From: an uncultured Clostridia bacterium | GTDB taxonomy: Bacteria > Bacillota > Clostridia > Saccharofermentanales > Saccharofermentanaceae | Length of the DNA: 64,000 nt | Reading direction: 5' to 3' | Assembly (NCBI GenBank): GCA_947303255.1 | Contig: CAMYXL010000003.1 | Span: 21,351 to 85,350, forward strand | Shown: positions 22,149 through 27,096 of the stretch, piece after piece | How positions within the stretch are numbered: position 1 is the stretch's first letter | Layout of the letters: every line of letters starts with the position of its first letter | Made by a program: the position numbers and the translations under genes | Notes under the pieces: generated by a model | Database searches by the model: none | What the model saw: the letters and a program-made list of their open reading frames with translations, nothing else | Told to the model about the DNA's origin: nothing

Positions 22149-22164
22149 TTCTACAAGTGTAGAA
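22149..22164. promoter_or_regulatory. BlaI-like operator overlapping the -10 of the 20796-22061 gene
   Basis: TTCTACAAGTGTAGAA palindrome inside TTGACA-N17-TAGAAT on minus strand. Confidence 0.75.
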
Positions 22165-22183
22165 AACGTTTGTCAATAGTTTT

Positions 22184-22199
22184 TTCTACATTTGTAGAA
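22184..22199. promoter_or_regulatory. Second BlaI-like operator upstream of the -35
   Basis: TTCTACATTTGTAGAA palindrome. Confidence 0.7.
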
Positions 22200-22305
22200 A
22201 AAATATCGAAAAAGTTTTAAAACTACTTTGCGGCAGGCGTTTTTGAACATAGAAAAAGGGGAGACGATGCTCCCCTTAAGGTGAAATTGGATTGTGTATG
22301 AACGA

Positions 22306-23400
22306 TTAAAATTCGTAGCTTGGAATCCTGTCATCGATGCGGGCATCGATAGCATGTGCGATGTAGAACGAATCATTCTTATCGCGTGCATCAAAGATGG
22401 ATGTCCAGTCGAGGCGGATAAGTACGCCTGCCTTTGTCTCGATATCCAGATATGTCATACCATCTGTTCCGATCAGACGGACATAGTCATCAGGAGAAAC
22501 GGATGCTGTGTCACTTGTCAATTGACTATTGACGATTATGTAACCTGAGACTTCATCAGTGAATGATACTACATTACGTACATCGTAGAACCACATATTG
22601 ACATCGACCAATACCGGCAAGCCTGTAGCTCCGACTCCGCAATAACCGCGGATATCAAAACCGTTTTCTTCTGATTCCATCAATGAAGCTTCGAAATGTG
22701 CCGGGTCATCCATGGTCTGTGAGAGTACGGAAAATCCGTCAGTGGAGTTTACATATGTGATATCGTTTCCGTCGATCTTATATACGTTAAGGTTATGGTA
22801 GAATCCTCTGTCTGTCTCAAGAGAAGATCCGACATAGATATATTCAAATCCGTATCTCTGAACATAGGTTACGCCATATGGCCAAACTTGCTTATTGTCC
22901 CATGTGATCGGAAGTTCAAAAGTCCTTCCGTTAAAGGTAATGATGATGTCGTCATCGCCCGGTTCTACCTTGAAATTTCCGTGCTTGCAGTCAAGAGTAT
23001 AGACCAGATTCGAATCGGGAACACGATCGAATTCGATGCATGTATCTTCCAAGATAATGGTCCTCTCTACCTCAGGAGTTGTCTCGGCAGATGTTTCCTC
23101 TGTGCTCTTCTTATCGTCGATCTCAATATCAGATGATGTTGTTTCTTCAGGATCTTTTGAATCGACATCTGACTCGCCGGTCGTCTCTGTTGTGTCTGTT
23201 GTTATAGGATCAAGAGTACTCTTCTGTTCCTCTTCACTTACTTGTGTATCTGCTGCTGTTGCTTCAGGAGCGTCACTTGTGAGTGCGTTAGCTACCCTGT
23301 CGACTGTGCCGTTCTGATCAGAGAACTCAACAGCGCATGCGGATGATGCCAGAGCGATTGATGCTACGAGAAGAAGTGATGCAATTTTTTTAGCTTTCAT
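22306..23400 (-). CDS. Lipoprotein of unknown function (BlaI-regulon candidate, paralog 2)
   Basis: MKAKKIASLLLVASIALASSAC lipobox; TLDCKHGNFKVEPGDDDIIITFNGRTFELPITW shared with paralog 3. Confidence 0.75.
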   Translation of the reverse strand: MKAKKIASLLLVASIALASSACAVEFSDQNGTVDRVANALTSDAPEATAADTQVSEEEQKSTLDPITTDTTETTGESDVDSKDPEETTSSDIEIDDKKSTEETSAETTPEVERTIILEDTCIEFDRVPDSNLVYTLDCKHGNFKVEPGDDDIIITFNGRTFELPITWDNKQVWPYGVTYVQRYGFEYIYVGSSLETDRGFYHNLNVYKIDGNDITYVNSTDGFSVLSQTMDDPAHFEASLMESEENGFDIRGYCGVGATGLPVLVDVNMWFYDVRNVVSFTDEVSGYIIVNSQLTSDTASVSPDDYVRLIGTDGMTYLDIETKAGVLIRLDWTSIFDARDKNDSFYIAHAIDARIDDRIPSYEF

Positions 23401-23485
23401 TTTATTACCCTCCAAAGTAAAAGTTGATCTTTTATAAGTTATTGCTTGTTCCGGAATAAGCATCTTGTTCTGACTTACAAGGCAA

Positions 23486-23501
23486 TTCTACAATCGTAGA
23501 A
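23486..23501. promoter_or_regulatory. BlaI-like operator overlapping the -10 of the 22306-23400 gene
   Basis: TTCTACAATCGTAGAA inside TTGACA-N17-TAGAAT on minus strand. Confidence 0.75.
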
Positions 23502-24984: not shown

Positions 24985-25116
24985 TACTAACCCTCCGATA
25001 AAGTACCTATCTCTTTTTATTTTCCCCCGAAAAAAGCAGAACGCCTATAGGAATTCTATGCGCGCGCATTATAAATGTCAACATTGTCAAATGTGGAAGG
25101 GTAGGTGTCCCGGGAT

Positions 25117-26673
25117 TTACTGCTCAACGATGCAGCCGATGTGATCCTTGTAGCAGGAAGCGGCATCAAGCATATCATCAGGCACGTCCATCAGATAGAA
25201 TGTGTCATCGGATTCTTTGTAGAACATGGCGACGTAAGGCTCATCAACGATCCTGCCGTCATCGGTCGGGCCTGTTCCCGAAGGCTCACCCGGGAGCCAG
25301 TGAGAAGAACTAACCTCCTCGCCGGAAAGCCAGTAGAACTTTCCGTCATCTCCTCTAGCAGCTCCGACATAGAAAATATAATCGGTAACGCCGTACTCTT
25401 TTATCAGCGAAGTGATCTTATCCCAGTCTTCTTCAGAATCGATGGATGCAAGATCGCAATTTAATTCTCTGGCGGCATTCTGTGATTCATTCCATGTTCC
25501 GTCAGAAGTGAAGAGCTGGAAAACAGGTTCCGATTCTTCTGTAGTTGTTTCTGTAGGTTCAGCAGATTCTGTGGTTACATCTACGAAACGGCTCTCGTCA
25601 TCGTCCAGATTCTTTCTTTTGGACGGTTCTGTTTCTTCGGTTTCTTCGGCAACAGTCTTCTTTTTGGAAGAAGCTTTAGTCTTCTTGCCGTTGAAATCAT
25701 ATGAAGCCGTGGAAAGAAGAAATACGACAGCCAGTGCGAATATGAGTACTATGACCTGAAGGACCTTGGAGATCTTTCTGCCGGTAAGGAGATTCTTGAC
25801 GCGAAGCTTAGCTTCCATTCCGCCTAAGCTGAATCCGCTGAATGCGGTATTCTGCATGAACGTGGTGCTCTTGTGAGTTCCGGATGCGTGAAGGACGATG
25901 GACATGCAGTATTCCTTTACAAGTTCCGCATCAAAGGAACTTGTGGTCTCTTCATCTACTCTCATTTCCATATCTGCGCAAAGCATAACATATGCGAGCC
26001 ATACCAGTGGATTGAACCAGTGGATGCAGAGAATGAAATAGCAGATGAGCTTGGTAAGACCGTCCTTGTTCTTTATGTGGGTCCACTCGTGATTGAGGAT
26101 GTATTCTCTCTCGTCTTCATTCATCATTACCGGGACGAATATCTTAGGCGACAGGAATCCGATAACGAACGGTGACTCGATCTCAGTCATGAAATACTTT
26201 CCGTCGTACGAACGTGAACACCATCTTGCTTTTGAATAGAAATTAAAATATCTGACAAAGAAGAAAACGAAAAGACCCAATGCTACGCTCAGCCAGACGG
26301 AAGCAATGACACCCTTGACCGATACGGTAGGAGTTGCCTTGTTTGCCACCTTGACGGTTACGTTGGACTGAACGATCCTCTTGATGCTGTGGTCTTCATT
26401 GAGGGATTTCTTTTCCGTTGACACGGATCCGGTCTGATCGTCGACTTCCTCGACGGCTGCTTCGTTTCTCGTAAAGATCTGACCAATATTAAGAACGCTG
26501 GCAGGCGTGCTCAGGTTAAAAGGAATTATGAGTCTTATCGCTACTGCGAGCCAGAATAATATAAGTATCTTCTTTGGGAATCGCCTGAAGACGAGACGAA
26601 GCAGAAGGACCGCCAATATCGCGATTCCTCCTGATATGCTCATCTCGAAGATCTTTAAGAAAACGTCGCCCAT
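25117..26673 (-). CDS. BlaR1/MecR1-family M56 membrane metallopeptidase with C-terminal C-type-lectin-like domain
   Basis: N-terminal TM segments; NHEWTHIKNKDG (HExxH) and WFNPLVWLAYVMLCADMEMRVDE; TM near VLQVIVLIFALAVVFLLS; then TWNESQNAARELNCDLASIDSEEDWDKI, FYWLSGEEVSSSHWLPGEPSG, GCIVEQ. Confidence 0.85.
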   Translation of the reverse strand: MGDVFLKIFEMSISGGIAILAVLLLRLVFRRFPKKILILFWLAVAIRLIIPFNLSTPASVLNIGQIFTRNEAAVEEVDDQTGSVSTEKKSLNEDHSIKRIVQSNVTVKVANKATPTVSVKGVIASVWLSVALGLFVFFFVRYFNFYSKARWCSRSYDGKYFMTEIESPFVIGFLSPKIFVPVMMNEDEREYILNHEWTHIKNKDGLTKLICYFILCIHWFNPLVWLAYVMLCADMEMRVDEETTSSFDAELVKEYCMSIVLHASGTHKSTTFMQNTAFSGFSLGGMEAKLRVKNLLTGRKISKVLQVIVLIFALAVVFLLSTASYDFNGKKTKASSKKKTVAEETEETEPSKRKNLDDDESRFVDVTTESAEPTETTTEESEPVFQLFTSDGTWNESQNAARELNCDLASIDSEEDWDKITSLIKEYGVTDYIFYVGAARGDDGKFYWLSGEEVSSSHWLPGEPSGTGPTDDGRIVDEPYVAMFYKESDDTFYLMDVPDDMLDAASCYKDHIGCIVEQ

Positions 26674-26680
26674 AAGAATT

Positions 26681-27049
26681 TTACTTTTCCGTATGCTTTG
26701 CAATCATATCCATAAGCTTGGCGGCATCATCCTTGCTCAGACTCTTGTTGCCGTTGCCAAGGAAGGAGTTAACGAAGTTCGGGAGAGAACCTTGGAAATT
26801 CTTGGTAACCATCTCCTCGCTCTGCTGCTGTTGTACTTCTTCACGTCTTACCAGATATGTGATGATAGACTTGTTGTTGGCGATAAAACCTTTATCGCTC
26901 AGTCTTTTTATCATTGTATATACGGTTGTTTTCTTCCATCCGTGGATCTGCTCACAGATATCGGAAAGCTCACCTGATGATATAGGAGAATGATCCCATA
27001 TCTGTTCCATAAGTTTGAATTCGCTCTCGCCGATAGAATTGTCTTTCAT
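26681..27049 (-). CDS. BlaI/MecI-family winged-helix repressor
   Basis: ESEFKLMEQIWDHSPISSGELSDICEQIHGWKKTTVYTMIKRLSDKGFI; directly upstream of the BlaR1-like gene. Confidence 0.92.
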   Translation of the reverse strand: MKDNSIGESEFKLMEQIWDHSPISSGELSDICEQIHGWKKTTVYTMIKRLSDKGFIANNKSIITYLVRREEVQQQQSEEMVTKNFQGSLPNFVNSFLGNGNKSLSKDDAAKLMDMIAKHTEK

Positions 27050-27080
27050 TCCTGGTCTCCTCTCATATATTTTTTCTTAA

Positions 27081-27096
27081 TTCTACACGCGTAGAA
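27081..27096. promoter_or_regulatory. BlaI-like operator overlapping the -10 of the blaI-like gene (autoregulation)
   Basis: TTCTACACGCGTAGAA inside TTGACA-N17-TAGAAT on minus strand. Confidence 0.75.

Follow-up and report, generated by a model that had tools for sequence, protein, structure and literature searches.

The window, as we call the whole 64,000-nucleotide stretch analyzed here, comes from an uncultured Clostridia bacterium of the family Saccharofermentanaceae. Its minus strand carries a gene for a BlaI-like repressor of 122 amino acids (positions 26681..27049), a gene for a BlaR1-like membrane metalloprotease (25117..26703) and three lipoprotein genes, here designated C (23641..24984), B (22306..23400) and A (20796..22061). 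The start codon of the metalloprotease gene is uncertain, as orthologues begin about 10 codons later. For lipoprotein A, which an ORF-finding tool began at a TTG codon (20796-22148), the ATG at 22061 is the most likely start. The three lipoproteins are paralogous to one another, each containing an unnamed domain of ~245 residues that we term LipX, and the regions upstream of A and B are similar to each other. The window also encodes a secreted protein of 1220 residues with an Ig-like region and four C-terminal DUF4214 repeats (16985-20647).

Five exact copies of the dyad TTCTACNNNNGTAGAA are present in the window, where none is expected, and all of them lie at the positions given by the initial annotation. 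No exact match occurs in 100 dinucleotide shuffles of the window, and tolerating up to two mismatches reveals no further site within it. The operator of the blaI-blaR1 promoter, TTCTACGCGTGTAGAA (27081..27096, minus strand), is located over the spacer and -10 element. Lipoproteins B and A each have a promoter operator (23486..23501 and 22149..22164, respectively, minus strand) and, 35 bp beyond it, an upstream operator (23521..23536 and 22184..22199, minus strand). The proposal that these dyads overlap identically arranged promoters was likewise correct: all three operator-bearing minus-strand promoters read TTGACA-N17-TAGAAT, with the dyad covering spacer and -10. The order is TTGACA, 6 or 7 bases, TTCTAC-N4-G and TAGAAT, and the right half of the operator doubles as the -10 element.

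Lipoprotein C has a TTGACA-N17-TAGAAT promoter without an operator, an arrangement also found in the nearest relative, G091. Its gene may be transcribed by read-through from blaI-blaR1, or it may be expressed independently. Where an operator would be, this region (23641-25116) has the palindrome ATGCGCGCGCAT, which is nearly identical in G091. The DUF4349 lipoprotein gene (27403-28542), which is divergent from blaI, also lacks an operator of its own.

A genome-wide scan, which the initial annotation had suggested as a check, indicates that the motif is not randomly distributed. The genome (G000; 2.94 Mb in 116 contigs) contains 13 exact sites, which occur at seven promoters as six doublets and one single site, and few near-misses (three more sites with one mismatch). 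Assuming independent bases, 0.29 sites are expected in 2.94 Mb, and reversed-pattern controls yield two exact and 27 one-mismatch matches. Two of the doublets and the single site lie in the window. The seven promoters are those of blaI-blaR1, lipoproteins A and B, three lipoproteins encoded elsewhere and one orphan site. The three additional lipoprotein genes are on contigs C7 (L015:5681-6604), C62 (L017:2465-3355) and C94. Because the C94 gene extends past the contig end and the same coding sequence opens contig C77, which carries a LipX domain, C94 and C77 probably hold parts of one gene. The lipoproteins of C7, C62 and C94 and the three in the window share mature N-termini of the form C-[TASQ]-[VI]-x-[FV]. 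Another LipX lipoprotein gene, on C39 (L140:2418-3485), has no operator.

The orphan doublet on C27 (L016:5474-5524) is beside a tRNA-Cys gene. In two relatives (G091 and G098), the same doublet stands before a gene for a secreted DUF4214 protein. The G000 sequence aligns with these relatives through and past the operators, omits the gene and resumes behind it. Judged by this alignment, the orphan site is the product of gene loss, in which the DUF4214 gene was deleted and its operators and leader were kept. A small RNA under the orphan operator was also considered; given the deletion of the gene that the two relatives possess, none is proposed. The window itself contains no Rfam matches.

The repressor is predicted to be a winged-helix protein of the Penicillinase_R family over its full length (PF03965, 81 bits versus a cut-off of 22.6; residues 6-117), and among PDB structures it matches MecI (1okr; 4.7e-7) and BlaI (1p6r and 1sd4). 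The MecI cleavage site, Asn101-Phe102, aligns with Ser95-Phe96; the Phe is kept, whereas the P1 residue of this presumed site is Ser (Ala in relatives) and not Asn. Like the CopY/TcrY copper repressors, the protein belongs to this superfamily (49.7 bits) and is associated with a related type of dyad. However, it scores under the CopY_TcrY equivalog cut-off of 121.95 bits, has an M56 protease as its partner and has no copper transporter among its targets, and CopY/TcrY membership was rejected. The blaR1-like M56 gene is directly downstream of blaI both here and in relatives, and an inverted-repeat operator over the -10 of the blaI promoter is also present in all relatives inspected.

The partner protein has an M56 domain (PF05569, 128 bits) in residues up to about 350. 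This part is 45-53% identical to orthologues and aligns with Staphylococcus aureus BlaR1 around the HEXXH motif and the autocleavage loop; its HEWTH sequence is aligned to the HEXXH of BlaR1 structure 8exp. At the C terminus is a C-type lectin domain (residues about 385-528; 25120..25551, minus strand), which scores 25.3 bits against a Lectin_C gathering cut-off of 22.6 and matches mannose-receptor C-type lectin domains at 3.9e-7. A domain search of the protein found neither a transpeptidase-type nor a penicillin-binding domain. Because the sensor lacks a beta-lactam-binding domain, the term "BlaI-like" used in the initial annotation should not be taken to mean responsive to beta-lactams. On the basis of homology, the receptor belongs to the M56 family without being a BlaR1-type beta-lactam sensor, and the repressor belongs to the BlaI family.

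These family assignments are compatible with a classical bla/mec-type system that is induced by beta-lactams and whose lipoproteins serve in resistance or cell-wall repair, and authors working on Clostridium thermocellum interpret BlaI regulons in this way (PMC8457756). We consider such a system improbable here, given that the presumed penicillin receptor has a lectin domain where a transpeptidase or penicillin-binding domain would be needed, that it reaches only 85.7 of the 400 bits set as the cut-off of the BlaR1 NCBIfam model (blaR1_generic) and that no beta-lactamase is among the targets.

The sites could instead be used by a different regulator, either another BlaI paralogue or an unrelated factor, with the window's BlaI adjoining one of them by chance. 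The genome does encode three more blaI-M56 pairs, for a total of four (the others are at L019, L020 and L021, on C45, C28 and C3:3000-12000), and binding by the BlaI in the window is a prediction. However, each paralogue's promoter has a dyad of its own, identically placed but different in sequence. The BlaI in the window, representing class 1, has the recognition helix GWKKTTVYTM and the dyad TTCTAC-N4-GTAGAA. BlaI-2 pairs WKKSTVYTM with GTCTAC-N4-GTAGAC, the third type pairs NWKKSTTYTM with a GTTTAT-type dyad, and the fourth pairs EWKKSTTYTV with a GTCTATC-type dyad. These pairings recur in most other genus members examined, and the operator code apparently follows the sequence of the recognition helix. 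Because four paralogues face four different dyads, the four modules are probably insulated from one another. A genome-wide search for GTCTAC-N4-GTAGAC as the mark of a second regulon found its own promoter and only one one-mismatch site, at C105.

The distribution of the sites among 85 genomes of the genus also argues against another regulator. The site is present in all 19 genomes whose BlaI is orthologous to that of the window (65-100% identity) and in only 5 of the 66 others (Fisher p=1e-14, a value that overstates independence because the genomes are related). In four of the five exceptions (G093, G024, G094 and G095), the one or two sites have different cores or are inside coding sequence; in the fifth, G062, LipX genes are present and the contig breaks off immediately beyond the sites. 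Genomes with only other BlaI classes do not have the site. Strong LipX matches are found in 18 genomes, all of which have at least three sites, a number not reached by any other genome; G028 has the repressor and the site and no LipX. With the sites tracking class-1 BlaI in this manner, control by a different regulator is improbable as well.

Operators are also kept before orthologous targets at unlinked loci. They are retained at the C62-type lipoprotein gene in five species (orthologues L131, L083, L142 and L143; relatives G091, G023, G085 and G090), and at orthologues of the C7-type gene (G091), the C94-type gene (G091) and the DUF4214 gene (G091 and G098). This conservation in several species lends independent support. 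The possibility that the doublets travelled with lipoprotein genes as these were duplicated, leaving the blaI copy as the one functional operator, would suit the paralogy of A, B and C and the likeness of the A and B upstream regions, but it is the least probable of the alternatives because operators precede unrelated families (C7-type, C62-type and DUF4214) at unlinked loci and persist in several species while neighboring sequence diverges. The initial annotation had the repressor controlling itself, the sensor and two lipoproteins. The exclusivity of the site, its co-occurrence with BlaI and the conserved targets favor this predicted regulon, which was nevertheless incomplete, as seven promoters appear to belong to it. 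The regulon assignment is strongly supported by the genome-wide and cross-species site patterns, with binding by the repressor as a prediction.

The sensors of relatives differ in their ectodomains. The sensor of G091 has the same M56 and C-type lectin architecture as that in the window. The G098 sensor is M56-LipX (607 aa), and twelve other genomes have M56-MID-LipX sensors of 808-858 aa, where MID is a domain with weak similarity to FG-GAP. Thus, 13 relatives have sensors containing LipX, the domain common to the regulated lipoproteins; for example, residues 612-820 of the G033 sensor are 42% identical (1e-45) to the LipX domain of a G033 lipoprotein. The G028 ectodomain is something else, neither LipX nor lectin, and the G074 sensor gene (L112:2149-4240) is apparently split into two open frames. 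G003 and G010 encode MID-lectin lipoproteins (L109:2012-3193 and L110:2435-3676) whose lectin domain is homologous to that of the sensor in the window. Because LipX occurs in both sensors and lipoproteins, and lectin in both the sensor and the MID-lectin lipoproteins, the sequences indicate that the ectodomains of sensors and surface lipoproteins come from one common domain pool. By the same comparison, the lineage of G000 and G091 remodelled its sensor, substituting lectin for LipX, and kept repressor, operator and targets. A literature search found nothing on BlaR1 with C-type lectin domains or on M56 proteins with BlaI and lipoproteins.

Lipoproteins of roughly 620 residues that adjoin blaI-blaR1 in relatives have two copies of LipX each. 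The predicted LipX structure is all-beta (pLDDT 87), and neither a PDB fold match at E below 0.001 nor a Pfam family was found for it. LipX is assigned no function because of the lack of a PDB fold match. RsiV is an anti-sigma factor that binds lysozyme and acts as a lysozyme sensor in Bacillus subtilis. The model of the C62-type lipoprotein (pLDDT 72) matches the structure of RsiV in complex with lysozyme (5jen; E 1.3e-4, TM about 0.6), and also matches DUF3298 proteins. This one conserved regulon member thus resembles a component of the RsiV-sigma V lysozyme response in fold, although it is a free lipoprotein under putative BlaI control rather than an anti-sigma factor, and sequence similarity is about 16%. 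The RsiV-like fold, coupled with the sensing of lysozyme by RsiV, permits the speculation that the regulon's signal might be a muramidase or another envelope threat.

Our preferred interpretation, to which we assign a probability of about 0.83, is that the locus encodes a transmembrane proteolytic switch of the BlaR1/BlaI type that has been re-used for a regulon of surface lipoproteins and is not a beta-lactam switch. Sites, promoters, conservation and domain homologies were computed. That repression works through occlusion of the promoter, and induction through proteolysis, we infer from the family; binding, cleavage, the ligand and lipoprotein function are likewise inferences. A BlaI dimer would bind TTCTAC-N4-GTAGAA and, by occupying both the spacer and the -10 element TAGAAT, would block RNA polymerase at its own and the lipoprotein promoters. 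At the lipoprotein genes, repression would be reinforced by second and third dyads at a distance of 32-36 bp. The C-terminal ectodomain of the M56 protein (lectin here, LipX with or without MID in relatives) would read an extracytoplasmic ligand and thereby activate the cytosolic HEXXH protease. The protease would then cut BlaI before the conserved Phe, and this cleavage would derepress the repressor's own operon and the envelope lipoproteins.

Since the sensor in most relatives contains LipX, as do the lipoproteins that it presumably controls, sensor and output lipoproteins probably recognize the same or a related envelope ligand, in which case negative feedback would result. A more far-reaching idea, which we offer tentatively and regard as rather unlikely, is that proteases of the BlaR1 type serve as modular receptors whose ectodomains (LipX, MID-LipX and C-type lectin) are exchanged within one genus while protease, repressor, operator and regulon remain constant. 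Lipoproteins sharing the sensor's ligand-binding domain might then be decoys or shields against the envelope-attacking agent that is sensed (a muramidase, for example, in view of the RsiV-like member), and might end the response by competing for that agent.

The predicted switch resembles staphylococcal BlaR1-BlaI and MecR1-MecI in its repressor family, the M56 HEXXH protease in the operon, the dyad over the promoter, autoregulation and the Phe after the presumed scissile bond (PMC9834060, PMC5341023); BlaR1 cuts BlaI between Asn101 and Phe102 (PMC9834060). As with BlaR1, whose ectodomain resembles class D beta-lactamases, the sensor type has an ectodomain homologous to a type of response protein (PMC9834060, PMC5341023). 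However, the ectodomain here is a C-type lectin or LipX, the outputs are lipoproteins and the dyad is TTCTAC-N4-GTAGAA, whereas the staphylococcal core is TTACA[A/T]NTGTA. In C. thermocellum, BlaI_0696 binds GTCTAT dyads, as determined by DAP-seq and EMSA, with ordered pairs at few promoters (PMC8457756). The BlaI regulons of that organism are similarly small and sharply bounded, comprising the repressor's own operon and a few operons for hypothetical proteins, with two ordered dyads per promoter and related dyads (GTCTAT and GACTAT), and the fourth-type GTCTATC dyad resembles that of BlaI_0696 (PMC8457756). The half-site is different, however, neither a lipoprotein family nor an ectodomain swap is described there, and a beta-lactam response is presumed by the authors (PMC8457756).

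The weightiest finding is that the predicted receptor is not a penicillin receptor of the BlaR1 type and has an interchangeable ectodomain, which in most cases matches the domain type of the proteins that it would control. Gut Clostridia abound in BlaI/BlaR1 pairs, which annotation routinely labels as regulators of beta-lactam resistance. The present case is a reason against counting such blaI/blaR1-like genes as resistance genes in metagenomes. It also provides a testable example of a directly proteolytic receptor with swapped ectodomains, and the unusually clean operator, together with paralogues that have their own dyads, offers a basis from which a BlaI recognition code could be worked out. 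In this rumen bacterium, a switch by which other bacteria detect penicillin has apparently been re-used, with its penicillin-sensing part exchanged.
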